From NCBI GenBank assembly GCA_026120035.1, contig JALRME010000031.1, positions 62,001 to 126,000 on the forward strand: DNA of 64,000 nt, read 5' to 3'. Source of the DNA: Coleophoma eucalyptorum. Taxonomy: Eukaryota > Ascomycota > Leotiomycetes > Helotiales > Dermateaceae. Shown in pieces: positions 26,096 through 57,693 of this stretch. The notes beneath the pieces were generated by a model. That model was not told the DNA's origin and searched no databases. It saw only the letters and a list, made by a program, of their open reading frames with translations. A program made the translations under genes and the position numbers. Position 1 is the first letter of the stretch. Each line of letters begins with the position of its first letter.

Positions 26096-26283
26096 TATTG
26101 GTATACGTTTACAACGAGCAGACCTCGTAATAGTATCGTAGGCTTTAATTATAGGGTATGCAGTATGTTGTAGGTGGTTGTTGATTCTCTATATATGTCT
26201 ATCGTAAATAGGGTTATATCCTATTAATGAATGCTATCACGTGATTAGGTCACGTGCTAAGTATATGTCATTGCAATCCGACA
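26096..26283 (-). repeat. 5' LTR of Copia element 1
   Basis: Partner of the LTR at 20268-20455. It begins TATTGGTATACG, where the first TG has become TA as RIP would do, and ends AATCCGACA. Confidence 0.85.
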
Positions 26284-26748: not shown

Positions 26749-26822
26749 AGGGTTATATTCCATCATCGAATGTTACTACATGATTAGGTCATATAATAGG
26801 TATATATCATTGCAATCCGACA
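26749..26822. repeat. fragment of Copia 1 LTR
   Basis: The sequence GGGTTATATTCCATCATCGA through CATTGCAATCCGACA matches the last about 70 bases of the 188-bp LTRs at 20268 and 26096 (there GGGTTATATCCCATCAATGA), with C/T changes. It is a truncated solo LTR next to the full element. Confidence 0.7.
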
Positions 26823-27020
26823 GTAGTATTATAGGTAGACTATTATACATTTTGATGTTATTGAATACAGCTAACGTAGGTGTATATTTCGTAGGAAAGA
26901 TATTACTTGATAGTAGTGTAATTATCATCAAGTTTAGATACATAAAATCCATCAAAAGTCTTGTTAGATTTAAAAACAACAGACTTCAATTACATAGTAT
27001 AAAGTTAAATTTAAAAGAAA

Positions 27021-31380: not shown

Positions 31381-31818
31381 TGTAAGAACCCGACCTGCTG
31401 CCGACCTGCCTGTATTGAACAATTGGGATATCAAGGATATGTGTCACGTGAACCCATTGAGGCATAAGTGTCGTTTACAGGCCTATTATCTCTGTAAGTA
31501 CATGGTATGGCGTGTCCCAACACGGCCATACCGCCCGCAAAAAGGCTAACATTACAACCGAACGCTCGGATTGTAACGTAATAGGCTATATATATCGTTC
31601 CCAAACGACATAAGCGAGTAGTAGCTGACTCGGAGGGGTTTCAGACCCAGGAAGCATATAAAAGGGATATGATATGGAATTGGTTCACTTTTTGGGTTCT
31701 TTCCTTATCTTTTTTGTGTCCTTCGTACGAGACCTATAGGATTCAGTCAATATAAGGTTATTATGCTCCCAAACTCCTCTATCCTGCCTTTGATCAAACC
31801 TGTGTCTTTACGTGGACA
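31381..31818. repeat. solo Gypsy-type LTR, relatively unmutated
   Basis: Begins TGTAAGAACCCGACC and ends TTTACGTGGACA (TG...CA), 438 bp. It matches the LTR at 57394 in its first about 75 and last about 210 bases, with shared TTCGTACGAGACCTATAGGA and CAATATAAGGTTATTATGCTC. The copy at 57394 lacks the GC-richer middle about 140 bp and is converted to AT-rich. No internal retrotransposon sequence adjoins it, so it is a solo LTR. A target duplication is not evident. Confidence 0.7.
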
Positions 31819-31968
31819 CTTCCTATATGTGTGTATATATATATAAAAACAGCTTAGTTCGTATATAGTGCTTCCTTGGATATAGAATAAGGTGTAGTAA
31901 GGTCATATATCGAGTAGGGTGTATAGAATAAGGAGGTGGTTCGGTCTAGGTTCTAGTTTGGAAATAAG

Positions 31969-32836
31969 GGTATTTCCAACTCTAGTTCTTAGTATATATA
32001 AGGTCCTTTTGACGTAATACAACCTTAGTTCCTTAGATTAGATCGGAAGCCGTCCCTACGAATAATAAAGCTAATGATAATAGTAGAGTATAAAGTACTC
32101 TAAAGGTTCGTAAAGTACGTTTTCCAATTAAGGATTCGTTGCTTTACTATATGACCTAAAGGTTGGCTATAACTCTCTCTTCAATAGAGGTATATATTCA
32201 CCAAGCTAGTTCTAAATAGCTTTAGAAAGTGACGAAGGGATAGACGTATCTCCTGATCTATATACGCACGCAATATACTAATTAGTATTAGTATCAATTG
32301 AAGCAATATTCGATAAGAGATCAGAAGATCAAGGGGTCAATTCAGTATAGTATAATAAGTTATTCTTCTTCTAAGTAAGTATAACATATAGGAGGTATAA
32401 ATACCGCCTATAGCATCATATGATTATAACAAGTAGTCATATGAGTATTAGGTGATAATCATAATATCGATATTCCAACATTTATAACTAGCGAAGGAAT
32501 AGTATGTATCTCCTGATCTATACACACTTATTGATCAGTATTGGATTACCTCTTATTTTAGCTATATCAATAATAGTCAAAATGTGGAAGGTAAAATATA
32601 GATGTATTCTCTGTTCTAAGTAAGTATAATAGAGGTCTTATTAATATCTTCTTCTGTTTGTAGAATAAACAGAATAGGTCTCGATCCAACCTCCGTTCGT
32701 AATGCTACGTAATGTAGGCATCGATCCGACCTCTTGTTCGTAGTACTACGTAATTACAAACAGGTAGCGTTTGTAGTAAGTACGAACGAGTGTTCGATCG
32801 AGGTCGAGATCGAGATCCAATAATGATATACCGACA
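31969..32836 (-). mobile_element. Copia leader and LTR relics
   Basis: 31969-32286 resembles the leader of the Copia element at 54085-54410: both have AGGTCCTTTTGA, TTAGATCGGAAGCCGTCCCT, CTCTCTTCAAYAGAGGTA and TATTCACC. Next comes a family 3 LTR (32287-32480, ending ATTCCAACA). Then a short piece of the same leader (32481-32538, GTATCTCCTGATCTATAC) precedes a 298-bp LTR (32539-32836) that matches the Copia 2 LTRs at 48395 and 54411. Both LTRs thus carry the same type of leader on their left, the 5'-LTR/leader arrangement of minus-strand elements. No gag or pol sequence remains. Confidence 0.65.
32539..32836 (-). repeat. LTR of Copia 2 type without an element
   Basis: Starts TATTGGATTACC and ends ATACCGACA. 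It shares long identical words with the Copia 2 LTRs, such as AACCTCCGTTCGTAATGCTA and GAACGAGTGTTCGATCGAGG, with scattered transitions. It is 298 bp against 305 in the full element. Confidence 0.8.
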
Positions 32837-32916: not shown

Positions 32917-33774
32917 CTAAACCCTATATAGTCTTTTATTATTATCTAACTTCCAGTAGTCATCACTTCCTACGCCTGAATTGGCCCAGAAAACGTAGTT
33001 CGGGTCGTACTTTTCTTTAATACCAAGCAGGCGTTCGTAGTTGTCACCAAAGTAGTCCTCTTTCCAGTACGGTTTGTCCCATGTAGCCTCATTCATATAG
33101 GTTCCCGAGCCGGGGGTCACAGTACGCATGGCGTCCTGCCATTGATTTAGCTGGGCTTCACCAAGGGCCAAATCGGCCGGTGAATCTGTGGTTGGAAATC
33201 CGATGCCAAAGGTCATATGAAATAGGGCGTCCCGCTATGCTGGGAGAACAGCATTTGATGCAGCCGTGTTGCCCACGCGTGCGTGACTCACGTTCGCCGC
33301 TATGACGCTAATGAGAGACGGGTACTCATCGTTGCTCACAATACTACGCAGTGTATCAACCAACTCGGGAAGCGTGTCTTGGACCACTGAGCGTGGTACC
33401 AGCCGCCCTCCAATGGAAGTGTTTGTGTCGTATTGTTGGGCGCCATCGAACACCTCGTATCCTTCGTAGAAGGTTTTGTAAGCTGATGTCTGATTGACTG
33501 CAAGGGTTATATTGAGTGATGCTAGTTCTTGAAGAAGGGGCGCTAGCACGGCAGACACATCGTCACCTGTTTTGTCGGGATATACTGCCCACAAGAGAGT
33601 GGCAGACACTCTGCTGAGAGCCCAGAAACTCGACATGCCAGGTATATCGTCGAGCACAAGCAAGTATTTGAGACACGCCGACACTCCAGCCCAGAATGTA
33701 TCGTCGTTGGTGTTGCTGAAGGAAAATTGCGATCCCGCTACGGGGCCGTCTACCGATAATATGCACATAAGCAT
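32917..33774 (-). pseudogene. FAD-linked (BBE-type) oxidase, 5'-truncated and with a stop
   Basis: C-terminal half of a berberine-bridge-enzyme-like FAD oxidase. Visible parts are VDGPVAGSQFSFSNTNDDTF, then FWALSRVSATLLWAVYP, GGRLVPRSVVQDTLPELVDT, SNAVLPA, and the BBE tail ATWDKPYWKEDYFGDNYERL with KEKYDPNYVFWANSGVGSDDYW. A TAG (complement 33237-33235) sits between VLPA and RDALFHMTFGIG, where the family has Trp, so TGG to TAG is likely. The frame is otherwise continuous. The N-terminal FAD-binding domain with the His/Cys flavin-attachment residues (roughly 250-280 residues) is absent, and no trace of it appears upstream to 34283. Such enzymes often oxidise polyketide or alkaloid intermediates, so it was probably part of the adjacent cluster. 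It is next to the LTR relics, which may explain the truncation. Confidence 0.85.
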
Positions 33775-34283
33775 TATACGTACTATTATGATTGATTATA
33801 TTTTATGCTTATTTCCTGAAATGCGGTGCTTATACCAAGACCACCCCACAGTAATACAACACACGTTATCACTTCCTTTCAATGCGACGCCATTTTAGGT
33901 TAGGCCTCTTATATTGCTTTGTCAATAATTTCCAACTAATATTTGAGACTTATTCTTGTCGATACTGTAAGGTTTGTGGATCTCCCTTCATTCATGTGCA
34001 TTGTCATAATCCTCAGCTATCATTATGCTTATCAAATGGGGCTTATTAACCGGGCGTTTCTTCCTACCCTACATAAAACTTCATATGCATGATTACTTTA
34101 CATTCATTTTTCACCTTATTTTGGAATGCTGTACCTAGGGAAAAACGTCTAATCACCGATCAATGAGAATCAACTCCGAATATCTAAATCTGAGGCCAAA
34201 GTCTAACATTGTGGAATTCTCGTTGAAGCCTCAGACTTGTAGCCTTTAGTAACTTTCAAACTTAGCAGCTCCCTCTCATTACC
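33775..34283. promoter_or_regulatory. spacer between oxidase relic and hydrolase
   Basis: The missing 5' part of the oxidase is not found here. The right part should contain the hydrolase promoter, and no specific site stands out. Confidence 0.4.
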
Positions 34284-35323
34284 ATGGTTGTTCTTCCGCG
34301 CCACCAGCCAGTCGAGTGCAAAACCATTGATGGTACAGTTATTTCAGGATGGCTCTACACGGTTAATGGGCCAGCACCAGCAATTATCATGTCTCATGGT
34401 GTACGTTTTCGTTTACCAGATTCGCTTCTAGAATCTGGGTACTAATAAATATATACAGTTCAACTGCGTTAAAGAAATGACGCTTCCAGAAGTAGCTGAA
34501 GCGTTCCAGGCTCAGGGGTTCAATGTGCTCCTCTACGATGCCCGAAGTGTTGGAGGCAGTCGTGGGTACCCAAGAAACCTGCTTAATCCGCTTCAAATGG
34601 CTGAAGACCTGTCAGGTAAGTATTCTCTAAGCAATCGCTGTGAGTCAGGTACAGAGATAGGACTAAGCAGCTTCGATGGCAGATATCTACACCTACATGG
34701 CAAGTCTTCCAACTGTTGATTCTAGCAACATAGCGCTATGGGGAATGTCCTTCGGAGGCGTCGTGAGTGCAACGTCGGCAGCGATAGATCGACGACCCAA
34801 GGCAGTTGTTATGGTGTGCCCGCTCTTTAGTTACGTCAAGCCGCACAAAGCTGAGAAGGCCTATGCACAACTCGTCAAGGACCGCGTGTCACAGCTTCGA
34901 GGCAATGAACCGTATTCCCTAGCCCCATTCACGCCCAAGGGCGACAATCCCATTGGTTTTGGTGGTGCTGGAGGACCAGGTGGAATCGAGGCCTACACCC
35001 TCATGAAGGCGGCGTCCGAGCTGGGTCACCCTGATTTCCGCGATCGTATCACTCTGCAGACGTATCAGAAGTTGGCCTTGTTCCGCCCAAAAGAATATAT
35101 GGACATGATCCGTGCGCCTGTGATGATGGTCATTCCGGAACTGGATGATATTTCCCCTCCCGAAGAACAGAGAGAAGCCTTTGCCAGGATACGAAGCCCG
35201 AAGAGGGAGTACTTCGCCAAAGGCAAAGGACATCTTAATATTGCTACTGGGGATGGATCCAAAGAGATGGTGGCGGCAACAGTTGCGTTCTTGAACGCAG
35301 CATTCGGTAGCCGGATAGAATAG
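34284..35323 (+). CDS. alpha/beta hydrolase, cluster-type (possible thiohydrolase)
   Basis: Three exons (34284-34400, 34459-34615, 34683-35323) with GT-AG introns give 304 aa. The start ACCATGGTT is in good context and the first exon carries the family's beginning (DGTVISGWLY, APAIIMSHGFNC with the junction inside the oxyanion-hole region). The nucleophile elbow is GMSFGG, the acid is in PELDDISPPEEQ and the catalytic His in GKGHLNIATG, so the triad is complete. The lid part contains a Gly-rich GFGGAGGPGG stretch. Similar hydrolases occur in fungal polyketide clusters, where some release or trim the PKS-bound chain; others are esterases. Its position between a BBE oxidase relic and a P450 and PKS supports a cluster role. 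It is the only cluster gene here with no visible damage. Confidence 0.85.
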
Positions 35324-38490: not shown

Positions 38491-41400
38491 ATGAGCCAAA
38501 GCCCCATTCCGCTGGCTATTGTAGGCATAGGCTGTCGACTGCCAGGAGATTCCACAAGTCCAGAAAAGCTCTGGGAGTTGCTGGCAAACGGAAAGAGCGC
38601 ATGGAGTAAAGTGTCAGCCGACAGATACAACGAAGAAGCATTCCTTCATCCCGATCCCGATGATACCAACGGTACCCATAATCATGTAGGGGGCCATTTC
38701 CTTAAGCAAGATATAGGAGAATTCGATGCCGGGTTCTTTAATATCTTGCCGCAGGAAGCAGCATCAATGGCAAGTTGCTCGGGAGTAATTCCCTTTCTCC
38801 CTATATCTTTCTAGCCGTCCTTTGGATGCATCTCTTGAATTTGAGAACCCCTGTTAACTTTGGTATTATTGCTCTAAATTCAGTTCGAAATAAATTTCAC
38901 AAAAGTATATGCTAACCCTCGTTTCTCATTAGGATCCTCAACAACGGCTCTTACTTGAGACCACTTATGAGGCATTAGAGAACGCAGGTATCCGCCAAGA
39001 ACAAATTCGAAATTCAAATACGGCGGTATATATGGCCATGTTCACTAGAGACTACGATCGGAACATTTACAAGGACATGATGAATATCCCTAAATACCAT
39101 GTGACGGGTACTGGCGAAGCAATTCTTGCCAACCGGATATCTCATTTGTTCAACTTGCACGGACCGTCAATGACACTTGATACTGGTTGCTCGGGCGGTA
39201 TGACCGCTGTCAGTCAAGCATGTCAGGCCTTACGTTCTGGGGAGTCAAACTTGGTTTTGGCCGGCGGTGCAAACCTGATACTGAGCCCTGATCATATGAT
39301 TTCTATGAGCAATCCTCATATGCTCAACGCCGATGGCAGATTATATTCTTTCGACAGTCGAGGTGCTGGCTATGGGCGGGGCGAAGGCATTGTTACCATC
39401 GTCATCAAACGGTTGGATGATACGATTAAGGCTCGAGACCCAATACGAGCTGTCATCCTCGATGCAGCCATTAACCAGGACGGCCACACGGCGGGAATAA
39501 CACTGCCAAGCGGTGTAGCTCAGATGGAATTAGAACAAAGAGTATGGAAGCATGTTGGTCTCTACCCTCCAACGGTAGGCTACGTTGAGGCGCACGGCAC
39601 CGGGACCCTCGCGGGCGACAGTGCTGAGTTGGAGGGAATATCAAATGTCTTTTGTCGAAATCGCGACACGCCACTGTATGTTGGATCCGTCAAATCAAAT
39701 ATTGGTCATCTGGAGAGTGTTAGTGGTTTGGCCGCTTTGATTAAGGCGACCTTGATCTTGGAGCACAACTCTATCCCGCCCAACGTCAACTTCCAACAGC
39801 CGAGGGCCAGTCTTAATCTAGAGCAGAAGAGGATTAAGGTTCCAACGGCGCTTGAACCATGGTCTCAACCTGGGATCCCGAGAGTCTCTATCAACAGCTT
39901 CGGATACGGAGGGACCAATGCGCACGCAATTCTAGAGCAACCACCACGACCTTCCCGACCATCAAGGAGCACACTAGAGAAATATGCAGCGATGCAGGAG
40001 ATTCCACGCCTATTCCTGTTAACGGCAGCAAGTCGCAGCTCACTGGTGAGCATGCTAGGAACTACTCGGGAATGGGTATCAAAGCATCCCGACCAAGATT
40101 CCCTGAGAGACCTATCCTATACACTGTGCCAGCGCCGATCCTTAATGTCATGGCGTTTCGGTTTTGTTGCAGCTAATCAAGAAGAACTACTTATGGCTCT
40201 TGAAAAACGTTCCAAGAAGACGGACGCTGTCACACGTATATCTGCAGACGTAAAAATTGCCTTTGTATTTACAGGACAAGGAGCTCAATGGGCCAGAATG
40301 GGTTGTGAACTGCTTTCCCATCCAATCTTCAGAGATTCAATGCATCGGCCAAGAGAAATCCTCTACAACCTCGGGTCTTCATGGAATCTGATTGAGGAGC
40401 TCCAGCGAGATAACGAGGAGTCTAGGCTGAAGGAAGCAGAATTGGCGCAACCTGCAACAATCGCCATCCAGACCGCGCTGGTTGATCTTCTCCATAGCTG
40501 GGGAATTGTCCCCGACTCAGTCGTTGGCCACTCCAGTGGGGAGATCGGAGCTGCATATGCCGCAGGCTACCTCTCTCACCGTATGGCGCTCACAGCAGCT
40601 CACTTGCGAGGCTTCTCCGCCACCATATCTAGAGGCAAAGGTCTTGGGAAAGGAGGAATGCTTGCTGCTGGTGTGGGAGAGAATCAGGTCGCAAAATACC
40701 TACCACTACTAAAGCAAGGTGTTGCTGTTGTTGCCTGCCAAAATAGCCCAAGCAGCTCGACCATTTCTGGAGACGATGCCGCAATCAAAGAACTGTCAGA
40801 AATTCTAACTAAAGAGAGCATTTTTAATCGAAGGCTCAATGTTGATACTGCCTATCACTCCCATCACATGGAAGCTGCTGCTGATGAGTACAAGAGCAGC
40901 TTGGGCCAGATCGGGGAAGACGACTCGCCCAAGACAGTCAATTTTTTTTCTTCTGTTACAGGATCCTTAAAGTCGAGTGGCTTTGACGCCAGATACTGGA
41001 CATCAAATCTCGTTGGCAAAGTCAGATTTTGTGATGCTCTGCAAAGTTTGTATAAAGCAGGACAGAATTCGTCCCGGAACGCACAGCCGTATCGGATCTT
41101 CATTGAGATAGGACCCCATGCTGCTCTTGCAGGACCCGCTAGACAATGTATTGCAGATTTGGGCGAACCGGATACTTATGAATACATTTCGGCTCTCGTT
41201 CGTGGAACCGAAGCTGTGCGAAGTGCCTTGGCCATGGTAGGAAATGTCTTTAATCGGGGCTATGCAGTAGATCTAGAGAAAGCTTTGGCTGTAGATCCAA
41301 GCTTGGATGATGCATTGGTGCTACACAATCTACCTCCTTACTCCTGGGATCATTCCAAGAGGCATTGGCACGAGTCACGTCTGAGTAGAGACTATCGCTT

Positions 41401-44400
41401 GAGGAAGTACCCTTACCATGATCTATTGGGTCTTAGGATGACCGACAGTACGCCACTACGACCAGCATGGAGACACATGGTTGGAGTCGAGGGCCTCCCT
41501 TGGCTCAGGGATCATGTCGTAGACGGGCTGATGATCTTCCCAGGTTCAGCTTATCTCTGTATGGCAATAGAGGCAGCGTCTCAACTAGCCAATGATCGCA
41601 ACCCAGAAAACAAAGTCCAGCGTGTTCTCTTAGACGATATCTCGTTCCTCAAAGGTCTTGTCATTCCCGAAGGCCGAGCTAGGATTGAGGTTCAGCTTAA
41701 CCTCAACCCCGTTGATGGGACTAACTCAGGCAAAACGATGCAACATAGGTTCTCTGTCACTGCTTTCACAGGCGATGAAAATTGGAACGAGCACTGCCGC
41801 GGGTCAGTTACGGTGGTTTTTGCGTCAGAACAAGAGGAAAAGCTGTTTAAGACCAGTCTGACTTACGGAAAGATGTCGAACATGCTTGATCCACTCTCCA
41901 CCAAGGTGATCCCATCGCATGAATTATATAAAGAGCTCGAGAGGGTTGGGAATGCCTATGGTCCAACCTTTTCAGGAATTCAGGACTTCTCAATAGATAC
42001 TGATCGAGCCGTTTCCCGCGTCATAATACCAGATGTAGCGTCAATAATGCTAGCAAATCATATACGACCGCACTTCATTCATCCTTCAACCCTGGATATT
42101 CTGCTGCATACCAGTTTACCCTTGGTCAATCAAAAACTTGGCTCCGGTTCGGTAATGCCAGTTCGAATTGAGGAATTGACACTCTCTGTTGATATTGAGA
42201 ACGAGCTGGGCAAATCTTTCTCCGCAGTAACCACTTTGATATCAAGCCATTTCAGAGCTGCAGAAGCTGATATCTTCGTGTTTCCCAGCAATGGCCTCCC
42301 AACTGCGACCCCCATAATGTCAATATCTGGAATAGAATTGCGCAGCCTAGCTTCCAATCCTCTCGATGATGCGACTCTCCAGAATGCACGCAACATTTGC
42401 TACGAGCTGAAATGGGGCCTAGACGAAAGCTTTCTCACCACAAGGCACCTTCAGATATCGGAGCCAGAACCATCTGAATCGAAACTCAGGATCTTGGACC
42501 AAGCAGTGGATATCTATATTCGCCGCTGTATTGCCCAGATACGTGGTAATGGCCTCAAGATCTCAGAGAAACACCACAAACTCCTCTACCAATGAATGGA
42601 GAACTCAGAGGGTTCCATGGTGTCTAGTAAAGCAGTAGTACGAGAAGATGAGGTCTTAAAAATTGCTTCTGAGCAGGGAGTAGAAGGCGAATTTCTTGCT
42701 CGTTTGGGACCGGCGCTTTCCGACATATTGACAGAGAGGGGCAGATGCGCTTCAGTTGGTGCATAAGAATGATTTGTTCTATCGAGCATGCGTCGACGAT
42801 TATTCTAGTCGTTGCTATTCTATGATGTCAAATTACTTGAAGCACAAGAGCTTCAAGCAGTTGGATCTTTCCGTCATTGAGATTGGAGGTGGCATAGGAG
42901 GCGCAACGCTACCGTTTTTGGAAGCCTTGGAAGCCTCTGGCACCCGCCCTGCCGTCTACGACTTTACAGACGCTTCCACAGAGCTTTTCGACCGCGCCCA
43001 AATTAATCTGCAGAAACGATCTGCGGCAATCAATTTCCAGTTGCTAGATATTGAAAGGGATCTCGAAGACCAGGGAATTAAGCAGCACTCTTACGATATT
43101 GTCCTAGCTTCCAATGTTCTCCACGCTACATCGAACATTGCCACCACCTTATCTAGAGTGCGCCAACTCTTAAAATCCGATGGTGTATTGTTATTAATCG
43201 AGCCCACAAATCCATAGCGGTTTCAAAATATCACTCTCGGCACGTTGTCGAAATGGTGGAAGGGTGCGGAAGAGGGCAGGGATACTGGACCACTCCTCAC
43301 CGTAGATGAATGGACAGCCGCAATGTCCCAGGCCTCATTAGAGGTGCAGCTTGCAGCTCCTGATGACGACCTGACCGCACTGTCTAGTTTTATGGTTGCG
43401 AGAGCTTCTGGTGTTGCTGATGCTATACCACTTCCCCATATCAGACTCATCAGTGAGCCTAGTTTACCAGAAAGCTTGGAAACTTTCACACAAGGAATCT
43501 CGAGTGCTTTAAAGAGCAAAGGGATATGGGCCTCCTCAACTCCATGGGGTAGCAAACCTCCGCCGAACAACACTATTAATGTCGTGATTGACAACGGCTC
43601 CAATCCTATCCTCAGTGACCCATCACTAGGACGATTTCAGGATGTATGTGAACTGTTGAAAAGCCCCTCAATAGTGATCTGGATAAGTGTTCAAGATAAA
43701 GAAAGTGATAAAACTAACCCCAAGAAACACCTTATCACTGGCATGTCACGAACAGCACACGCAGAAAACGAAGATCTCCATATGGTCACGATCGACGTGC
43801 AACAGAGTCTTAGTCAGATTAATCAACCAGGACTACTGAAGTTATTGATACAGCTAGTCAAATCTTCTCTGCGAACAGATTGTCTTCGTGAGCGAGAGTA
43901 TGTATTCAACGACACTGGTGTGCTAATCCCGAGAGTCATTCCCAGCGCCACACTCAATCGTCAGATCTCTAGCAAAAGCGAGACAGTCGTAGAGATCAAG
44001 ACTTTTACAAACCCTCAAGTGCCTCTGAAGCTTGATACAGAGAGGAAAGAATTTCTGAATCATCCTATCTTCGTTGAGGACAAGGCTCATCGTGAGCCAA
44101 TCGCAGCAGACTGTGTTGAATTAGATGTGAAGGCTTTCGGAATTGCTTCCAAGGAGTTACAGTACAATATCAACGAGTATGCTGGCGTCATCTCTGCAGT
44201 TGGGTCTGCTGTTACTATACTAAAAGTCGGCGATCGAGTCGTTGGTTTCAGTGCTATACCATACGCAAATCGGCCCAGGATTGACCAAACACAGGTTCAA
44301 CTGTTATCAAGCCCAACTTCATTTAACACTGCTGCGGCGTTACCGATCTCGTTCATGACCGGCTATCATGTCCTCGTGGAAATTGCAGGCATACAGTCTA

Positions 44401-47400
44401 GACAGTCAGTCTTCATCGATGGTGCCGCAAGTGCTGTCGGCCAGGCCGCCCTTGCAGTGACTAAATACATTGGAGCTAAAGTAGTAGCTACTGTGTCGAG
44501 AGAGGATGAAGCAACCTTTCTAATGGATTCTTTCAATACACCGCTAGGCTCCATCATTCCCCGAGAGAGTTACCTATCTAAGCGTCAACTGGATAAACTG
44601 GTTGGTCCGAAAGGACTGGACGCCATAATTTGTTGTTTGGGATCTCCCGTATCTAATGAGATAGTTCGTGTTCTAAAGCCCTTTGGGACCATAGTTCATG
44701 TCCAAAGTCATCATAAAGAGTCGAAAAATCATGGAATAATGGCACCGAGACAACCCTGTAATGCAACCATCTCACACTTTGATCTCGAGTCGTTTATTCA
44801 GGCCAAACCCCAAGAGGCTGCCAAACTACTTCAGAAAGTCATGAATTTTGTTAATAAGGGCATGTCCCTGAAGTCACATAAGATCTCAGTTGTGCCGATG
44901 AACGAATTTGAAGAAGTGTTGAAGCTATCCAGCAAGGATGAGGGCTTGACCAAATATGTTCTTCAAGTCGGGGATAATTCTGTGGTAAAAGCTATGAGAC
45001 CAAACCGCAGTATTCTAACACTGGAACCCAATGCTACATACTTAGTGGCTGGGGGGTTGGGTGATTTAGGTAAGAGATTTCTACGTCTAATGGCGAAAGC
45101 AGGCGCGAAATATCTGGTTACATTGTCAAGAAGTGGATCGGATTCAACTTAGCATCGAAATTTTGAAAAGGAGCTTCAAGAACTTGGAGCAAACTGCGTC
45201 CTCTGCAGCCTAAATTGTAATATCGCTGATGAAGGCAGCATCAAAGCCGCAGTATCTCAAATCAAGGCCAGAGGGTGGCCCAGTGTCAGAGGTGTCGTCC
45301 AGTCAACCGTTGTACTCCGAGATTCTACGCTCGACAATATGACCGTTGAAGTGTTCAACAGTGTGCTTGAAGCGAAGGTGAAAGGCACATTAAACTTGCA
45401 GAAGGTATTTGCAGCAGAAGACTTGACGTTCTTCATCTCCCTCTCCTCTGCTGTGGGAATCATTGGCACAAGTGGACAGGCGAACTATAACGCAGGGAAT
45501 ACCGTCCAGGATGCGCTAGCGCAATTCGACAACACTTCGAACTGTCATTACATGTCAATCAATATTGGTTCAATAGAAGGTGCCGATGCTTACAACAACA
45601 ATGACGCCCGTGTCCAGTCACTCCGAAGACAGGGATTAATTCCCATTATGCCCTCAGAGTTGCTGCCATTTTTGGAGTATTCGATGAGTGCTGATGCTCG
45701 CGAAGCAGGCTGCCACCAAGCCGTGATCGGCTTTACTCCAGAGTCTCTATATCAGACAACTGCCGTCAATGGGTCTGCATATACACCGATGTTTAATCAT
45801 GTCCCTCAAATAGATACGAAGAGCGATACTGCTGCGCAAAAGAAGGCCTTCAAAGACATCATTATGGAGGCAGTAGACGAGGACGACATCTCTCATTTCA
45901 TTGTACAGGCGATAAGTGAGCAGCTCGCAGATCTTTTGGGCATCAATGCTTCAGAAATAAACCTTGGCTCATCTATCATGGACTTTGGACTTGATTCATT
46001 GATCGCTATTGAGCTCAGAAACTGGATCATGAGAGAATTTGACGCGCCGATTCAATCTTCCGAGGTTATCGACAGTCAAGATATATGGTCTTTGGCTCAA
46101 AAAGTTACCCTGCGCTCCCGTCTTGCAAATGACGATAGCACCGAAACTATTAGTAGTAGTGAAGGAATATCAACATCCACGATGCCGACATCAAGATCAC
46201 GCTCTCAGGAGTCGCAAAATAGACTTACTAAGTCTATCGCACAACCACTTCCTGTCCCAGACCTTCCGGAGACCCTCAGAATGTTTGTTGACTCACGCAG
46301 GGCTCTTTGCTCGCCTGAAGAAGCGGCCGAGACCATGCAAGTGGTCGAGGATTTTCAACAATCAGGTTTAGAGCTACAGCAAGCTTTAGAGGATCCATCC
46401 AGGCAAGACAAGAGACTAGATTTTTACGAAAATAACATTCATCTTGGTCGTAGTGAAGCTCTTCAAGACCATGCCCTATTTTATCTGGGCCATTTGACGG
46501 ATGGGGCTCCATCGCACAGCCAGGCTGCGAGAGCTGCGATTATTACCACTGCTGCGCTAACATTCAAAAAGCAGCTCGAAAATGGGCAGCTCGAACCAAA
46601 CCTACTAAATGATATACCATTGAACGCAGAAACCCTTCAAGTGGATTTTCCATGCATACCAAGACCCGAGGAAAGGAGTGGACTATATTAAAAAGTTCCC
46701 TTCAAGTAACAATATCATAGTGATGCGAAGAGGACACTTTTACGAAGTCGAGGTGGCGGAGCAAGAGAGCCTTGCGCAGCTCACAGCTTTGTTTTCCAAT
46801 CTTATCGAATCTTCGGAGCAAGCTGTACCAGCCGTCGGTGTTTTGACTTCCAAGGGGAGAGATGACTGGACTTTGCTGCGCTCCGAGCTGTAGGGAATCC
46901 ATTCCAATGCTGCCACCCTCGAGGCTATCGAGTCTGCTGCATTTGTAGTTTGTCTTGATGAGACTTCCCCAGTCACCACATCTGAGCGTTGCACTGCCAT
47001 CTTGCTCAATGACCGTCATTTTAACAACCGCTGGCTAGATAAGACAATCCAATTCACCGTTGCCGCCAATGGAGTCTCCGGCCTTCTTGCGGAGAATGGA
47101 AAACTGGACGGACTAAGTGTGAAACAGTTGAATGAGTACATCACGGACCAGATTCTGGAATATCCAAATATGTCCGCGCTTGAAGAGCAGCCCAGTCTCA
47201 AGTCACTGGTGCGAGAGATTATATTCAATATCCCACCCAGTATTACCAAGCACATCAAAGAACAAACGTCACGCAACTTAGCATTTTACAGCCCCATTGG
47301 AGCATTCCGCCACAACTACTCTGAGCTAAACCGACAATTCCTTGGCTCCAAACGCTTACGTTCCAAGGGAACCGTTCTATTGTCCATCTTATTCGCGACA

Positions 47401-47982
47401 CGCGTATTTTATGGTTTTTTCGAGCCAGTCTGGGAGACAGTAACACTAGCTAAGTACGCAAAGGGCCGCGTTGATTGGCTACAGAGTCTTACACCGGATA
47501 TCGCGCTCTGGATTGAGAGAGCCATTGACTTCATGGAAGGTCGGAAAGACGATAGCATGGACCTTTCATTCAAACTGAGGGATGTCGTCAGCAGTCATGC
47601 AGTGTCCATCCGGCGGGTTGCAGATGGTCATGGCTTTGTCGAGCCGCTCTATGCACTCTTGGGTGTTGCACTGGAAAAGAAAGAGCGTGACCCAGATTAT
47701 GTGATCCTAGCGCTGTTCCATTCCGCTGCGTGGAAGTTCTATGACCGTAACGCGTCGCCAAAGAGGGCGAAGACGGATTGTCTGGGGTCGGGCGGCTATC
47801 TCCGGATGTAGGAAGGAGGCTTCCAAATGCCAAATCCCAATAGCGTGTTTGTTCATTATGAGGTCCACCATTCGGACCCGCTAATATTGGTACAAGGCCG
47901 TGTGCAAGATGTTGCGAGGTTTGAAGTGTGTCTTGATGCGGCGATTAAGACTATGCGTGCCATTATCGACCCTGAAGGGTGA
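38491..47982 (+). pseudogene. highly reducing PKS with C-terminal carnitine acyltransferase domain, disrupted
   Basis: An iterative type I polyketide synthase of about 3,100 codons. Exon 1 is 38491-38769; a GC-AG intron follows (38770-38932). Domain order: KS (DTGCSGG near 39188, EAHGTGT, KSNIGH), AT (VVGHSSGEIGAAYAAG), DH (HVVDGLMIFP; DILLH), cMT (VIEIGGGIGGAT), ER (GAASAVGQAA), KR (LVAGGLGDLG; NYNAGN), ACP (GLDSLIAIELRNW) and a carnitine/choline acyltransferase domain from about 46240 (LPVPDLPETL to FVHYEVHHSDP). PKS-CAT enzymes release the chain by transfer to an alcohol. Damage: TGA at 42593-42595, +1 shift in a G4 run at 42738-42741, TAG at 43215-43217 and 45150-45152, one extra G at 46641, TAG at 46891-46893 and 47809-47811. 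Coding resumes in the predicted frame after each. The acyltransferase EHxxxDG motif reads ENGKLDG. It cannot make full-length protein. A Pogo transposon begins 135 bp downstream. Confidence 0.93.
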
Positions 47983-48117
47983 GAAGGGCGGTTTTTCTAT
48001 AATTTTGGGTTAGGTCTGACCCGACAGCTGTACTAAGTAGCATCTTCTCTCTTTCACCTAGTATAGTCGTGTCATAGTTCTTTCTAGAAGACTTTATATA
48101 ATAAAACATAACTACTA
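47983..48117. other. spacer between PKS and transposon
   Basis: Only 135 bp, AT-rich at its right end, between the PKS stop and the TA target site of the Pogo element. Confidence 0.6.
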
Positions 48118-48394
48118 ACGTGCGGGATAAGCGGATGGTATAGATAAGCGAATGGTACAACCTCGTTATAAATTTACTACCTTTACCTTATACTACAATT
48201 TTTCTATAACCAACTATAGGATCTACTTCAAACGAACGTTAGCTTATCCTTGCCCTCTAAGCTCTTAAAAATGATACTATACTTACCGTACGGAAGGCTG
48301 CAAAGATCTATAAGGTCTTATATATGACCCTAACGCGTCGTATTAAAGGGAAACCTCCTTAGGCCGATACAACAGTCAAATCACAAAAGCTTAC

Positions 48395-48699
48395 TGTTGG
48401 AATACCTCTCATTTCAGCTGTACCAATAACAGTCAAAATGCGTGAGGTAAAATGTATATATCCCTTTTTTTCTCTGTTCTAAGTGAGTGTGATGGAGGTC
48501 TTATCAATACCTTCATCTGTTTGTAGAACAACCAGAATAGGTATCGATTCAACCTCCGTTCGTAATGCTACGTAATGTAGGCATCGATCCGACCTCTTGT
48601 TCGTAGTACTACGTAGTTGCAAACAGGTGGTGTTTGTAGTAAGTACGAACGAGTGTTCGATCGAGGTCGAGATCGAGATCTAATAATGATATACCGACA
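48395..48699 (-). repeat. 3' LTR of Copia 2
   Basis: 305 bp, TG...CA. Partner of 54411-54715. Confidence 0.93.
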
Positions 48700-48826
48700 C
48701 TGGGAACTCTCTTTTATAGAGAAGAATCTATGTGTTCCAAAAGACCTAAATTCGAAGTAAAATAAGAATATTAAGTTTAATACCGAGTGCTGTATACGAG
48801 GTAAAGTATACGCACTATCCCCTTTT

Positions 48827-49018
48827 TCAACTACTTACTCTTTCTACCCATTCCACTCTATATAGGTTGATTCGATTCGTATCGATCAATTGCTTTAGAG
48901 CTGATGAAGGATTGCTCTTGGTCATAGAATCAGCAGGGTTGTTACTACTATCAATCCACTTGATTTCGGCAATTTCCCGTCTTTCGTACGACTGGCGGAG
49001 GTACATAATATCGATCAT
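48827..49018 (-). pseudogene. Copia 2 RNase H, C-terminal part
   Basis: Reads MIDIMYLRQSYERREIAEIK, then WIDSSNNPADSMTK and LKQLIDTNRINLYRVEWVER. The upstream part (TDSKSIYECLVKLGTTQEK, FTDASFANN) is readable in the same frame but broken by TAG and TAA codons up to the reverse transcriptase. Confidence 0.8.
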
Positions 49019-49732
49019 AAGCCTCTTTTCTTGTGTGGTTCCTAGCTTGACGAGGCATTCGTATATCGATTTGGAATCCGTGCATAAGACTAGTGGTAAC
49101 TTGATATTGAGCTATAATTCGATTGTCGATTTTAGTATCGTACCGATGTCGAATCCATGAACAATAGCGTATAGTTCGAAGGCAAGAACACTACGTGTAA
49201 CCCTCTTGCACTTGGTCGAGCTCTAATGAATGATATTGGCTCTATTCTGAGCATCTGCAAGCACACATACGAACCCAATCTGGGAACTAAGGTCCTTGTT
49301 ATTAGCAAAGGATGCATCAGTAAATACGACCAATTTGAGTGTTAATAGGTCCAATTTGATAAAGGTAAGACCTCTGGTATAGTTATCCAATTGCTACTGA
49401 ATATACTTATTAAGCAGCTTGGCATCGTTCTCTGTAGGGTTGACCACCTAGGCAGCAACAAAGAGGTCAAACGATACCTCTGGTTGACATACAGAGGCAA
49501 TATAAGCACCTCTGGCTCTTTGAGCAACGTATTGATCCTTTGGTGTAAGGGCAAAGCGTACGGTGCCTCTTGAACTAGTACTTGATATAACCTCCTTGAT
49601 ATTAACCAATTTGAGGTTCTTACAATAGCGTTCCTAAGTCAATTGGATGTCGGTTCCTACCAATTTGATGATACTACCATTGAACTTAATTGGATGATTA
49701 GGTGTCAATTGCTTACGGTCCTTTGTAGGAAA

Positions 49733-50638
49733 TTAGGCTTTATCGACTACCAATTGCTCTATAATAGCGAACGATTCATTGGCTAGGAACAGGGTGTCGT
49801 CAGTCTGTAAGCCTACTATTCCAAGTACTCCGTCAGGCGAATTGATATATAGTAAGCATGAATCGTACGTAGATTGGGCTATATGGAGCTCCTGAATATG
49901 GTGTTTGTGATATATGCTGAACCAATGGTTTCTAGCTTCAGGAATGCCATACAAGGGTCGAATAACTTTTATGATAGAGCCTACATCCGTATCCATTGCT
50001 ATACAAAGCTCGCGTGGTGCTCGGATGTAGAAGTCTCTATTTAGGGTGGTCTTCGATTGAACGTATGCTTGTGAGATGTCACGCAAGAATAGGTGTGTGT
50101 TTTTATCCTGGAGTATTGCCGTATGGCTAAGAATGAGTCTCTGGCTCATTCGCTGAATTGTAGGCGATTGGGTGAGCACAAGATCTTTACGAGTATCGTT
50201 ATATGCTTGTACCACCAATCTTGACTTCTCGTAAGCTTCCTTCGACCCGGGATTCTTGACTTTATCGACGAATCGAGAGTTAAATACTCGGATGTTCGAT
50301 GGTATATACTTAACGTCAACGAGCTGGAATACACCCTTTTCAACTAGTCCTTCGACCTCCTTTTGGCGGGAAACTACGAATGACGGAGTGCTCTGAATAG
50401 TATTATCCTGGATGTGAATTAAGATATTAGCTTGGTTAATAGGGTATTTGTGTGGTCTTCCCCTAGGTCTCTTTGGAGGCGGTACTATAGGTGCTATAGT
50501 ATCAATAGATTGAGGTGGTGGCACTATAGGCGTGACTGTAGTATCGATTCGAGTATCGATTCTAGTGTCAATATTGCTTGGATTCGTCAAATAAGGCTTG
50601 ACCGATGTGATTCGAAATTGGGTGGGCCCGTGAGGCAA
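49733..50638 (-). pseudogene. Copia 2 reverse transcriptase region
   Basis: A 301-codon open stretch with a Copia RT: VFNSRFVDKVKN, YEKSRLVVQAYND, TQSPTIQRMSQRLIL, FLRDISQAYVQS, IKVIRPLYGIPEARNHW and LQTDDTLFLA (the YVDD-equivalent, with both Asp kept). The N-terminal Pro-rich part (PPKRPRGRPHKYP) links it to integrase. It is part of a pol frame broken on both sides by stop codons. Confidence 0.85.
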
Positions 50639-51619
50639 TTTTACGGTACACGATTCGTCCTATAGGCTCAGGAGGGTATAAGGACCGGCCCAAAATCCAG
50701 GTTGGCCAGTTGGACCTTCTCTCCATACCAACACAGGTGAATTCAGGGGTAATTCGTACACGGATGCCGTGGAGGGGCCGTTACGCATTTGAAGTGCGTC
50801 CGAAATCTGGCGTTCAGCACGTAATTTCTTAATCTCGTCCATTGCCTTTTTGAGGGCTTTCGTACGTTAAGCTACTGTAGGATTTGGGGCATCTGATTCG
50901 CTCATCCGTGGATACGCTCCAAATACTAGTAATGTAGGAACGAGGCCATTCGGACCTACTGTATCATTCAATACTTTAAAAGCCATCTGTAGAGCTATTT
51001 CCTTGCTCAGATCTAGGAGCTCTATAGAGATGATACGATACGTACGTCGGAGGGGTCTATAGTATCTTTCGACTAGTCCGATCGAATTGTGTGTCTCAAT
51101 AGGCGCTAATTTGGTTGTAATACCTAAGTCAGAGGCGTAATGCTTGAATTCCTAGCTTACGAAGTTCTTGCTAGTATCGTGTGTAATGAAATCAGGTGGA
51201 CCTAAATAGGTGTCGATCTAGTATACACGAAGACAGTCCTATGTGTGTTTGGCTGTAATGCTCTATAGCCATCTGCCAGCTTGGAAACGAGTGTACTCGT
51301 CGACTATATAAAGTATAGGAGTACCATCGATATATATAATATCTACAATGATGGTATAGTTAAATTGAACATTATCGCGTAATATAAAACGAAATCTGCT
51401 AGGTGATTTTCTATAGACCTAGCAGTGGTGGTAGTATCTATTCAGGTGCTAAAGGGTCGACTTTTCGACGTCATACCTAGCTCGCTCTAATACTCGCTGT
51501 AGTCTGTCCATAGATGGGTGACCGAAACGCCTATAGAGCCGACGTAGTTCAGCGGAGGTTAGAAAACAAGGGTCTACAAGTGAAAAAGATCCTATAAGGT
51601 ATGTTTCCAAAGATGTGTT

Positions 51620-51955
51620 CTATAGTATGAATGGGTGCCCAAAACGTCGTATAATAGGCACTTGTGTAGTTGGTGTAACAAGTATGTTTTTCAGGTTGTT
51701 ATAGTATACCTGTATATTGTCTATATCCGCTAGGTATAGTAAAAATGGTGTATCGATCTCGACTATATGGAATGTGATCATTCCAATAGGTGTAGTTACG
51801 TCAATAGATCCAACTGAAGATATAGTACCTATACCAAATTGTACATTGATATCACCATATGTAGAGGTATCTAGGTCTACACTAGTGAGTTTCTTGAATG
51901 TCTGGTATTGCCTATACCCTACGGTTGATCGTTTGGAGGCTCCTGTATCAATCAT
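51620..51955 (-). pseudogene. Copia 2 aspartic protease
   Basis: Starts IDTGAS, the catalytic D-T/S-G motif, followed by HIVEIDTPFLLYLADID and a GAG-pre-integrase-like start (RRFGHPF). Stop codons flank it. Confidence 0.75.
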
Positions 51956-52852
51956 AACACCTAGGAATTTGTCAGAGGTGTATCGAGCCTATGATATATA
52001 GGTGAAGGGATCCTCGACTGGTTGATGATTTACCCCGCCGGGCGGGTTAAATCGATCCAAGTGGAGGCCATATAGAAATACGGTATCAGCCAGGTGTAAG
52101 GCTATATCAGTTGTAATATCCTAATCAGCCTGACCGTATGATGTATGGTATTAAGCTACAACCATGGTATTGGATGTAGGCTCAAGGTTAGGTGTAGGAG
52201 GATCCTATGATTCGATATCGATCGAGAGTGCTTGGAAAGAGTGTTCAAATTCGTCTATATCTTCGATATTATTGCCTTCACATTCAGTAACGTATTGACG
52301 AAATCGAGTATCGAAACGCTTGCTTTCAAAGCTAGGTTTTTGTGCCATTTTGTCCCTAAATCGCTGTCTTGCTTCATCCTATTCTTCCTTGGTGTGTCGA
52401 TACGATCGATAGTTCTCTTTCTAACACATATAGCATCGCGGCTTTCGTCGAAAACTAGGCTGGAATCTAGCTTGCTTTGGTCGAGAATTATAGTATCTAC
52501 GATCTGTGTAGTATACCTCTGTATCCTCGTTCGCATCCGTATTGAATGCTTGAGCCTTTAGTTCAGGATACTAATCCTCCTATATGTTAATTGATGATTG
52601 CATAAGGCTGATCAAAGGTCCTAGCTCTCGAGGAGGGTTGGATAGGGCGAATTAACAGGCAGGAATGCCGTTACATAATGTTAGTACCTTGGTTGTAAGG
52701 AATGATAATGTACGTAATTCAGGTATAAGACCATACTGTAATTCTAACAATTTGTCGACCAGAATCTAAAGGCATTTCTTGATTGATATACCAGCATTAT
52801 CATCCATAACTTTCTGGAGCGTAAGGCTGTTCCATTCACCTAGTGTCTGGGT

Positions 52853-53287
52853 CTATGATATTAGGCCTTCGAAAAAATTACGTAGGTATATGCATGCTTG
52901 GTCGAAAGTAAGGAGAGCCAGTTTGGTATTATAGTATTGCCTCAACGCTAGTCCTGAAAGCATAGCTAGTAATACTCTAATGTAGGCTTCAGGTAGTACT
53001 CCTGATCGATCACATATATCTAGGAAGATCTCTAGCTTATAGTCGAAGCTACTAGTACCATCAAACTTAAGTTCACCCTCGATTTGCTTAGCAGCATAGG
53101 TGATCTCCTTGCTGTAGTTAGTAACTACTAAGGTCACTAGGTGAGGTTGGTACAGTGATGCTAGTGCTGGTGCTAGTGGATGTACCATAGGTACTATAGA
53201 TCCAGGTACCATAGGTGCTATCGATCCATATGCTATAGGAGCTATCGACAATACGGGTGCTATAGCAGGTGCCGTACGTACGAACAC
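52853..53287 (-). pseudogene. Copia 2 gag-like domain
   Basis: Contains GELKFDGTSSFDYKLEIF and LPEAYIRVLLAMLSGLAL. The same domain survives in Copia 1 (about 24608-24796: IDFKLKIFYEACKKS, LAMLLGMALEYYF), which shows that the two elements are related. Confidence 0.7.
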
Positions 53288-54410
53288 TAGAACAGCTGGT
53301 GCTTAGGGGTTTTTGAGTCGATTTGAGAGCCATCCTTCCTTTGGAATCTGACTTTACGCCATCAGAAACTCTTCGGCTGTCCATATGTGTGGCTCCTCTT
53401 CCTGAAGCAATTCGTAGATCAAATCGGCGTATGTGAGTGTCTTAGACTTGTTTTTCATCCATACACCTCGACGAAGGAATTCAGTGTAGATAGGTCGAAT
53501 TAAGGCTGTTGATGCCTCTTTTAGATCTTCTAAAGAGAACTTAGCAAAGTCATCCTGTATTGTATGCTAGAGTAATTGATCTATAAGGCCTTCCCTAACG
53601 TATTGATCCAACCTGAATTAGATGAATTGATTAATGTGTTCTTGGTCGACTGATGTAAAGGTAGAGTACTAGTTCTCCTAAAACTGGGTATCTCTAAAGG
53701 TTGCTATCGAAGCTAAAGGTGTAATGAACGTATTGAATGAGTGAAGGTATAAAGGTAAAGGTGTTAAATATAGGTTGATGTATTGATATCGAAGGAGGGA
53801 ATAAATAAGTGTTTTGTACTAAGAATTTGATAAGAGAATGACTGTAAAGTATCCTTCCTTCGGACCGTAGTTCGTTTGAAGGATCAGATGATTTGTATGC
53901 GTTTGCTATAAGGGATTTCTTGATTGACAAACGCTTTCTGGGTTGAGAGAAGAGGGGTAATTCGGAGTCAAATTCGGAGTCAAACAGAGGAAAGTGAGGT
54001 CTCGTTTGTATCGAAATTGAGGTGATTCGTTCAAGATTTTCTCGTCCAAAATTGAGGCTATTCCCAACTCTGGTTTATTCGTTCGTTCGATCTTTCGTAA
54101 GGTCCTTTTGATATAATGCAACTTCAGCTCTCTGGATTAGATCGGAAGCCGTCCCTGCTAGAGATGTATGAAGCTGATGATAACTTAGCAAAGTAATGCC
54201 TCCTGGGTTCGCAAGGGCCGTAGTTCAATTAAGGGTACGTCGTACTGCTGGGTCTAGGGAGGTTGACTACTCTCTCTTCAACAGAGGTAGGTATTCACCG
54301 AGCCAGCTCTGAATAGCTTCAAACCCGATACTAACGAAAGGTAGTATCGAATAACTCATTCACAACTGACGGAGGGATAGTACGTATCTCCTGATCTATG
54401 CACTGATTAG

Positions 54411-54715
54411 TGTTGGAATACCTCTTATTTCAGCTGTACTAATAACAGTCAAAATGCGTGAGGTAAAATGTATATATCCCTTTTTTTCTCTATTCTAAGT
54501 GAGTGTGATAGAGGTCTTATCAATACCTTCATCTGTTTGTAGAACAACCAGAATAGGTATCGATTCAACCTCCGTTCGTAATGCTACGTAATGTAGGTAT
54601 CGATCCGACCTCTTGTTCGTAGTACTATGTAGTTGCAAACAGGTGGTGTTTGTAGTAAGTACGAACGAGTGTTCGATCGAGGTCGAGATCGAGATCCAAT
54701 AATGATATACCGACA
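54411..54715 (-). repeat. 5' LTR of Copia 2
   Basis: 305 bp, TG...CA. It is followed by the CTTAC duplication and the continuation of Pogo copy A. Confidence 0.93.
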
Positions 54716-56305
54716 CTTACAAACCTAGAAGAAGAGACTATTGTTAATAGGTTACTTAACCTAGATTCCTAAGGATTTCCTATACGAATCTCTAGTGTTA
54801 AAGATATAGTAGATCTTCTCCTTCGCGTACGTAACGTATCTTCGGTCGGATAGAAATAGGCTACGAACTTTATAAAACGATAACCATAAATTAAAATATA
54901 CCAAACGCGTTCGTATAATAATTAGAGAGCCCTTTGCGAAGATCCAATAAAGATTTAGGCTTAGTTTAGGCTTATATAGAATTTTATCGCGAAATTTAGG
55001 ATACGTATTAAGGATATCTATAACTTTGACGAGACTAGGTTTATAATAGGCTAGATCGGAACCACGATAGTTGTTATAAGCTCCGATCGTACGACGAGAC
55101 TAAAGCTACGTTAGCCTAATAATCGAGAATAGGTTATAGTTATTTAGGGAGTTAATTCGGAGGGCTAGACTATTCCGCTATATATTGTTTTTAAAGATAA
55201 AAATCTCCTAGATTCCTAGTATCCTCGAGAGCTATTCCTAGCTAGCTAGAGGGCTAGTGTCTCTGAAAATAGCTAGATATCTAATAAAGTATCTCTAGAA
55301 TGGCTAGAGTACTTTGATAAGTATACCCGTACGAAGACAATAGGGAAATATCGTCTTCTTATCCTAGATAGCCACGAAAGTTATATATCAGCTGAATTCT
55401 AGGAATACGCCTATACGAATAATATTCTTATACTCTATATACCTCCTTATTTATCTTACCTACTCTAGCCTTTGGATGTTGGCTGTTTTGGGCCTCTAAA
55501 GAAAGTATATAGGTTACAAATTGAGAATATCATACGTAGCTAGATTTCTTATATTTCTAAGGAATCTTTTATACTAGTATTTATAGAGGTATTTAAAGCT
55601 ATCTTTACCAAAGTAAATATCCAGAGAGGTTTTAGAGGGGTAGGACTTATTCCGTACGACCCTAAGAAGGTCCTATCAAAGCTAGATATTTAATTATCGA
55701 CTCCGGTACCTGAAAGCTTGCGTCCCTTAACCTCCCACTCGTGGGTCTATAAAACACCACAAACAGCCAAAGAAGTAGTCAAATAAGCAACTCTTATTAA
55801 GAGTAGAATCGTACGATATTATAGTAGTTCTCTAATACCAATTTTGGACTCTATCGATAGATTATAGAAAAGTATAAGCTAGATTAGTTATAAACTTATA
55901 CTTCTTAAAGTAGAGGTTATAAGACTTCAAACTACGAATAAAGAGCTAAGCCGTCGTCGACGTACGAAACGAAAGGTACTCTAGTAAGGCGGAAGTCTTA
56001 CTATAGGAGAGATCTAAGAAATAGAAGAAGAATAGGCTATTTAGACCTAAATTTCAATAGAACAAGGACAAAATAAGGAGAGGAAACCATAGGTCGAGTT
56101 ATATGATCGGCGCTATAGAGCCTATAGAGAGACTGAGTATAACAAACGAACCTACTAGGCTAGTAGAGTAGCTTCGTATGATTCTAATGATATAGAGGAA
56201 TAGTTATTTAGAGCTAGGGTTATTAAGTTATTAGTGTTTCTATAAAATAGGGTTTCAAAGTTGTACCATTCGCTTATCTGTACCATCCGCTTATCCCATA
56301 CGTTA

Positions 56306-56652
56306 TGTTCCATCTATAACACTTCTATATATGAAAGGTAAAATGTAACTATGTCTTCAATTAATAGTTTACTTCTTATTTGAGGGCCCTTTTAATATCC
56401 CTTCGACTACTACGGGCGTGAATTTTAGCGTAGTAGGGGTTGTAAGCTAATCAAATTAGTATATAGATTCTAAACTACTATTACCTTATATAAGTTAGGC
56501 AAGTGTCTTACTTTCTATACCTTCTGTGTGTTTTAACTTTTCAAACTAGAATATCTCTACCAAAAAGCACCTTATCAATACAAAAAGAATACTATATAAC
56601 TCTTGCTATAGATTCTATAGAAAAGTCTGTTTTATAAGGTTTAACTAGGCTA
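56306..56652. other. AT-rich spacer between Pogo copies A and B
   Basis: About 350 bp with no coding signal and no repeat that I recognise. Confidence 0.45.
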
Positions 56653-57393
56653 ACGTGCACCACAAGCGAATGGGTCACACAAGCGAATGGGTCAGTCCCA
56701 TAATAAAATCACCACCTTTATATTATACCTCTATTTTCTTAACAACCAACTATGGTATCCTCTTTAAAAGAAAGCCAGTTTATCCTTGCCCTCTAGGCTC
56801 TTCAAAATGACCCCAAACTTAGTATACAGAAGGCTGCAACTATATATAACGTCCCTCCTATAACCCTAACGCGTCGCGTCAAGGGAAAACCCTCTTAAGC
56901 AGAAATAACAGTCAAATCACGAAATCTTACAAACCTAGAAGAGGAGACTATTATTAAACGGTTACTCGACCTAGATATACAAGGATTCCTTATACGGATT
57001 ACTACTATTAAAGAAATGGCTGATCTTCTTCTTCGTGTACGCGACGCGCTATAAGTAGGGCGAAACTAGGCTACCAACTTTATAAAACGACTACTACGGC
57101 TTAAGATATATCAAACGCGATCGTACGATAATTAGAGAGCTCTTTATGAAGATCCAAAGAAAATTCGGCCTTGGTTCGAGCTTATAAAGAATTTTATAGC
57201 TAAATATAGAATATACGTTAGAGATATATATAATTTTGACGAGACTAGGTTTTTGATAGGACAAATTAGTACTATAATTATTGTTATAAGCTTAGATCGT
57301 ACGACTAGACCAAAGTTACGCTAGCCTAGTAATCGTAAATAGGTTATAGTTATTCAGGGAGTTAATTCATAGGGCTGGGCTGTTCCTCTATAT
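56653..57393 (+). mobile_element. Pogo/Fot1-type relic (copy B), cut by Gypsy LTR
   Basis: Starts after TA with ACGTGCACCACAAGCGAATGG and carries the same transposase N-terminal region as copies A and C (GCCCTCTAGGCTC, AACCTAGAAGAGGAGACTAT, TTTGACGAGACTAGG), but is clearly more diverged, especially in the TIR. It ends abruptly at 57393 where the Gypsy LTR begins. Its 3' part is not seen before the window end. Confidence 0.8.
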
Positions 57394-57693
57394 TGTAAGA
57401 ACCTGACATACTCAGAATAGACAATTAGGAATCCAGATATATATCATATGATCAAATATATATTATATAACCTAAGATAGTATACGTAAGCGAGTATAAG
57501 TAGAGTCGGAGGGGTTTCGGACCTAGTAAGCATATAAGAGGGATATATTATAGAATTTGGTTTCTTTCTCTTCTTCTTTTCTTATCTTTTTTGTATCCTT
57601 CGTACGAGACCTATAGGATATAATCAATATAAGGTTATTATACTCCTAAATACCTCTATCCTACTATTGATCAAACCTATATCTTTATATTAT
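57394..57693 (+). repeat. 5' LTR of the Gypsy element
   Basis: About 300 bp; the right border is approximate because the CA end has been mutated. It lacks a middle section of about 140 bp that the solo LTR at 31381-31818 has. Confidence 0.65.

Follow-up and report, generated by a model that had tools for sequence, protein, structure and literature searches.

Release of the product in a recently inactivated polyketide synthase of Coleophoma eucalyptorum, whose carnitine-acyltransferase-fold domain belongs to a clade lacking the catalytic histidine

How could a fungal polyketide synthase release its product if the domain expected to do so has lost its catalytic residue? The question is raised by a gene at positions 38491-47982 of a 64,000-nucleotide stretch of Coleophoma eucalyptorum DNA, referred to here as the window (positions 62,001 to 126,000 of contig JALRME010000031.1, or C26, of the 45.3-Mb assembly GCA_026120035.1). 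The gene encodes a highly reducing type I polyketide synthase (HR-PKS) ending in a domain of the carnitine acyltransferase fold (cAT). We conclude, with a probability of about 0.85, that it is a recently inactivated synthase of the clade of AFT9-1 (the HR-PKS of the AF-toxin cluster of Alternaria alternata), in which one early replacement of the catalytic His by Asn made the textbook release mechanism impossible. In that mechanism the catalytic His takes the proton from the hydroxyl group of the acceptor; the cAT of the Asn clade cannot use it, because this His has been replaced.

Pfam searches with eight pieces, each read separately, recovered the domain order ketosynthase (KS), acyltransferase (AT), dehydratase (DH), methyltransferase (MT), enoylreductase (ER), ketoreductase (KR), acyl carrier protein (ACP) and cAT, which an earlier note, made from the letters of the window, had already read. 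KS-AT-DH-(MT)-ER-KR-ACP is the order of a highly reducing type I PKS, with an ER that is weak to Pfam, and PF00755 follows the ACP within the same gene, which supports the identification as an HR-PKS with a C-terminal cAT. The PF00755 profile is covered in three pieces (1-132, 139-235 and 241-510) and occurs in the Pfam lists of all 41 database relatives. The nearest of these, P0002, matches eight of nine pieces with 53-76% identity (KS-AT-DH, 76%; a 30-residue linker, 53%; MT, 59%; end of MT to start of KR, 60%; KR-ACP-start of cAT, 71%; the remaining cAT pieces, 65, 71 and 75%); the ninth piece, the start of KS, is missing from the P0002 protein. The similarity of the locus to its PKS relatives is far beyond chance.

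In place of the EHxxxDG motif of carnitine acyltransferases, the window reads AENGKLDG. The program phmmer aligned the Asn of the window with the catalytic His of human and mouse carnitine acetyltransferase (CrAT), and the Asn of P0002 with that of CPT2. Among the 41 relatives, 33 have Asn and eight have His at this position. Two more searches, started from His-type members, brought the total to 80 proteins, of which 33 carry Asn and 47 His; the latter are a sample, as one search scored just those candidates with the most shared words. When the window, three cATs from this genome and the carnitine acyltransferase that the genome itself encodes were added, there were 34 Asn and 51 His rows. Asn is thus found in the window and in 33/33 clade relatives, and His is kept in 50 other rows (the 47 PKS proteins and the three cAT loci of this genome) as well as in the CrAT of the genome itself.

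In a tree built without the catalytic column, the Asn rows formed one clade (support 100/99), needing a single change in each of the 200 bootstrap trees, and the His-type P0034 was its sister (SH-like approximate likelihood ratio test, SH-aLRT, 95). By source names the clade includes Alternaria, Colletotrichum, Fusarium, Trichoderma, Xylaria, Talaromyces and Monilinia, as well as AFT9-1. We rejected the idea that the Asn is a further lesion of the window copy, because it is clade-wide and ancestral. The tree places a single origin of the His to Asn change before the clade radiated, long before the gene of the window is predicted to have died. The DG of the motif is kept in 34/34 Asn rows. The Glu preceding the Asn is also lost in nine of the 34 (P0006, P0023, P0025-P0029, P0032 and P0036), being replaced by Leu in six rows and by Val, Ala and Gly in one each. 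Searches of a literature collection lacking most subscription papers, including that on Tv6-931, turned up no earlier description of the His loss. Wider homologues were found neither among plasmids (with a cAT piece as query) nor among viral contigs (with six P0002 peptide patterns).

The ligands of the carnitine carboxylate, given as Tyr431, Thr444 and Arg497 (human numbers) in PMC11820905, are likewise changed: the window has Trp, Val and Glu. Across the 34 clade rows, the Tyr431 position is occupied by Trp in 33 (one gap), which is also usual in His rows (33/50), the Thr444 position by Ile in 29, Thr in three and Val in one (one gap), and the Arg497 position by Glu in 32 (two gaps), whereas the His rows keep Arg in 34/50. 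The complete two-lobed carnitine/choline acyltransferase fold is predicted for P0002 by a structure model, and this refers to the relative, not to the broken copy of the window; a first model (predicted local distance difference test, pLDDT, 72.6; below 50 around the motif) was replaced by a later one. A pairwise comparison (covering the 60 of 81 entries for which a KS start could be located) indicated that the Asn-clade cAT is under about the same constraint as working, His-type cATs.

While the synthase was working, its PKS domains would have assembled, on the ACP, a chain that was reduced and C-methylated, and the terminal cAT-fold domain would then have met the acyl-ACP. Release may have fallen either to a separate hydrolase, the cAT having a role without catalysis, or to another base within the cAT, for which the His of a QDH motif is the first candidate. 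Both are variants of the explanation that we favor, and the catalysis-free role is the main rival of a relocated base.

The first variant, plausible though short of an even chance, holds that the Asn-clade cAT is a pseudo-enzyme (a scaffold, an ACP-docking or a chain-length part) and that a separate hydrolase releases the chain. CER2/GL2, which are BAHD proteins and share this fold superfamily, act with a ketosynthase without needing catalysis of their own, and GL2 complexes were listed in the comparison made for the cAT fold of P0002. The loss of the catalytic His from 34/34 rows fits this view, as does an alpha/beta hydrolase gene 3.2 kb upstream of the PKS. Its family has five matches in the genome, including itself, and four of them (this gene and those on C11, C68 and C13) have a PKS or cAT no more than about 4 kb away, which suggests a family of trans-acting release enzymes; the upstream gene is possibly the separate release enzyme of this PKS, but the link is one of nearness. 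The AF- and AK-toxins carry a terminal free acid, for which a transferred ester would not account: in PMC8102738, off-loading by the cAT of AFT9-1 is presumed, yet an ester is noted not to fit the acid products. Against a bare scaffold stand the kept DG and the new histidines fixed in the clade, which are more than it would need.

These histidines are the basis of the second variant, a tentative one that we consider somewhat unlikely, in which the QDH His, or the His pair of a HYEVHH motif, replaces the lost His and would make the domain a transferase or hydrolase with a new use of the acceptor. The QDH His is present in 33/33 Asn-clade relatives and in 0/51 His rows (three of these gaps), HYEVHH is present in 32/33 (P0036 ends upstream of the motif), and the constraint is about unchanged. 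However, co-fixation within one clade is one event and gives no repeated correlation. The fuller proposal, that the AFT9-1 branch is an acyltransferase lineage in which the His was lost once and catalysis moved to QDH or HYEVHH under kept constraint, is also somewhat unlikely in our view. If true, it would amount to a way of releasing the product, perhaps as a free acid, that to our knowledge no enzyme of the carnitine acyltransferase fold uses.

Seven lesions disable the gene of the window: five in-frame stops (one TGA and four TAG) and two frame changes, at the places given in the earlier note, the first frame change lying between 42,730 and 42,738. Lesions and invariant sites were analyzed in alignments with 29 of the 41 relatives (P0011, P0026, P0030 and P0034-P0042, being incomplete or distant, were left out). 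At every lesion the relatives align up to it and again beyond it, with no more than a few residues in the gap, and introns at the lesions are ruled out because there are no spare bases relative to the relatives. The gene thus has the several independent lesions, not removable by splicing, that are expected of a pseudogene. Repeat-induced point mutation (RIP) was ruled out as the cause by the dinucleotide ratios over the gene (TpA/ApT, 0.66; (CpA+TpG)/(ApC+GpT), 1.39), which contrast with those at 56000-64000 (1.48 and 0.36, respectively).

The window breaks 15 of 523 alignment columns that are invariant in the 29 relatives; P0002, P0003 and P0005, its nearest relatives, breach two, one and six such sites, respectively. 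The excess of 9-15 breaches, read as neutral, corresponds to a change of 0.8-1.4% per site, which predicts 2.5-4.9 stops in 3,105 codons; five are seen, and the frame changes are outside this calculation. Since two rough clocks agree, the description of the gene as being in early decay is fair: a neutral divergence of about 1% predicts most of the stops. By its sequence, the PKS-cAT gene is a recent and, in itself, ordinary pseudogene.

Several points weigh against our conclusion. We know of no activity of any Asn-clade cAT, and an Asn enzyme might keep a slow activity. The His at position 2533 of P0002 also occurs in 5/51 His rows and is therefore not tied to the Asn. The constraint comparison uses pairs that depend on one another, and its 0.2-0.3 bin sets a single His pair (ratio 1.01) against 120 Asn pairs (1.36). 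The invariant-site clock is rough, because two relatives, P0032 (21/544) and P0023 (16/539), breach more sites than the window, which ranks only third of 30. Finally, of the 59 PKS matches elsewhere in the assembly, 20 run across stops (introns and lesions pooled). This, and the fact that frame changes are a common error of long reads, would suit an intact gene spoiled by assembly or base-calling errors, which is nevertheless quite improbable: sequencing error is unlikely because 5/7 lesions resemble substitutions, open frames of 2,009-2,492 aa contain five other PKS matches of this assembly, and the 15 invariant sites are breached as well.

The weakest alternative, that the gene is alive because its lesions are read through or its four TAGs are turned to UGG by adenosine-to-inosine (A-to-I) editing in the sexual stage (known from Fusarium and Neurospora, with TAG as the favored codon), draws on TAG being 4/5 of the stops and on Trp at the TGA column in 8/29 relatives (a quick first alignment, its end apparently misplaced, had given 0/32), but can be virtually dismissed, as UGG would not match the family residue at the four TAG columns (Trp in 0/12, 0/29, 0/29 and 0/29 relatives with a letter there) and editing would not repair the two frame changes.

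The Asn clade is a non-canonical PKS-cAT variant with testable release chemistry. The earlier note assumed the off-loading chemistry of PKS-cAT fusions, but the catalytic His on which it rests is absent clade-wide and ancestrally; the intact relative to be sought need not be awaited, as 33 Asn-clade relatives are already in the databases as full or partial proteins. According to PMC10901484, it is still not clear what the cAT domains of the AF-toxin and sordarin clusters do. The clade-wide His loss bears on the conflict between ester and acid in AFT9-1 and makes it directly testable. The label "carnitine acyltransferase" for the Asn-clade domain can mislead genome mining for off-loading chemistry.

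Table 1. Position of the PKS-cAT gene parts, lesions, residues of interest and upstream genes in the window
Feature	Position	Strand	Evidence or remark
Berberine-bridge-type oxidase fragment	32920-33795	-	Upstream of PKS
Alpha/beta hydrolase	34432-35320	+	Weak to moderate Pfam hydrolase matches
P450	35980-37692	-	Upstream of PKS; Pfam on 2/5 pieces
Exon 1, with start codon and KS N-terminus	38491-38769	+	PF00109 on 38491-38775, E 1.5e-16
Intron, phase 0	38770-38932	+	GC..AG borders (GCAAGT ... TAG), read by eye; relatives continuous across
KS remainder and C-terminal extension	38933-40156	+	PF00109, PF02801, PF16197; DTGCSGG, EAHGTGT, KSNIGH
Malonyl acyltransferase (AT)	40262-41248	+	PF00698, E 4.9e-53; GHSSGE
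Dehydratase (DH)	41417-42361	+	PF21089, PF14765; DHVVDG, HPSTLD
Lesion: in-frame TGA	42593-42595	+	Alignment to relatives
Lesion: frame change	42730-42738	+	Relatives align in one frame up to 42730, in another from 42732
C-methyltransferase core (MT)	42876-43190	+	PF08242, E 2.6e-15
Lesion: in-frame TAG	43215-43217	+	Alignment to relatives
Enoylreductase-type region (ER)	44172-44726	+	PF00107, E 2.3e-9; PF08240, 0.004; weak to Pfam
Ketoreductase (KR)	45033-45578	+	PF08659 on either side of stop at 45150
Lesion: in-frame TAG	45150-45152	+	Within KR
Acyl carrier protein (ACP)	45885-46139	+	PF23297, PF00550; GLDSL
cAT	46248-47982	+	PF00755 in three pieces; reaches natural gene end
His of QDH	46470-46472	+	Fixed in Asn clade; window position from sequence
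Lesion: frame change	46641-46642	+	PF00755 resumes in another frame
Lesion: in-frame TAG	46891-46893	+	Within cAT
Asn replacing catalytic His of EHxxxDG	47095-47097	+	Alignment with human and mouse CrAT
Lesion: in-frame TAG	47809-47811	+	Within cAT
His-His of HYEVHH	47866-47871	+	Fixed in Asn clade

The features of the locus are listed in Table 1. Both the introns and the genes present in the window are of fungal character. The AT motif GHSSGE is identical in 29/29 relatives. The sole intron of the gene lies inside KS, upstream of all lesions, and relative P0005 spans exon 1 as residues 3-94 and resumes at 95 past it. As read by eye, it has a branch-like site (TGCTAAC) and an unusual GC border in a good donor context (GCAAGT); this border is possibly a late donor change and possibly normal. 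Repeats with the RIP signature lie farther out on both sides of the locus, and the PKS itself is untouched. The signature was found in 79 of 254 windows of 500 bases (18001-28501, 31751-32501 and 48001-63251); these are mostly repeats, with direct copies (D3, D7 and D10) shared between both sides. A long Ser/Thr-rich frame of 45-base repeats, including a stretch of N, occupies 27478-29829 on the minus strand.

The same genome contains two further KS-to-cAT PKS loci, on C62 and C35, both of the His type; the cAT of the latter (L022) groups with SdnO-named Penicillium synthases (SH-aLRT 97). The cAT on C13 (L025, 1481-3320), which adjoins a hydrolase and a P450, begins like an ACP when read by eye, but Pfam matched no ACP there. 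Nearby on its strand no KS was matched, and a PKS match lies about 7 kb upstream on the other strand; this cAT is either a remnant or a stand-alone domain.

Compared with the carnitine acetyl-, octanoyl- and palmitoyltransferases and choline acetyltransferase, the window copy has both the catalytic His and the carboxylate ligands replaced. The SdnO-type HR-PKSs of sordarin (P0069 and P0070, by source name) are PKS-cATs like that of the window, but keep the His (EHTMIDG and EHSMIDG). Tv6-931, LtbA and MaPKS17a, HR-PKSs with a C-terminal cAT and tested release, share the layout of the window gene and, as described in PMC10901484, have the catalytic His conserved. Release as a polyol ester, as a glucinol ester or by hydrolysis cannot be transferred from them to the window, because it has Asn instead of the conserved His of such ester-releasing cATs. 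Among the closest known systems is AFT9-1 (P0025), along which the window pieces align in the same order (cAT pieces 47, 56 and 66% identical; KS-AT-DH, 56%) and whose cAT, with the motif GLNSTLDG, falls in the same Asn clade (100/99); its listed Pfam domains are without the ER model PF00107, unlike those of the window gene. According to PMC8102738, AFT9h of the AK-toxin cluster is, like the gene described here, a pseudogene.
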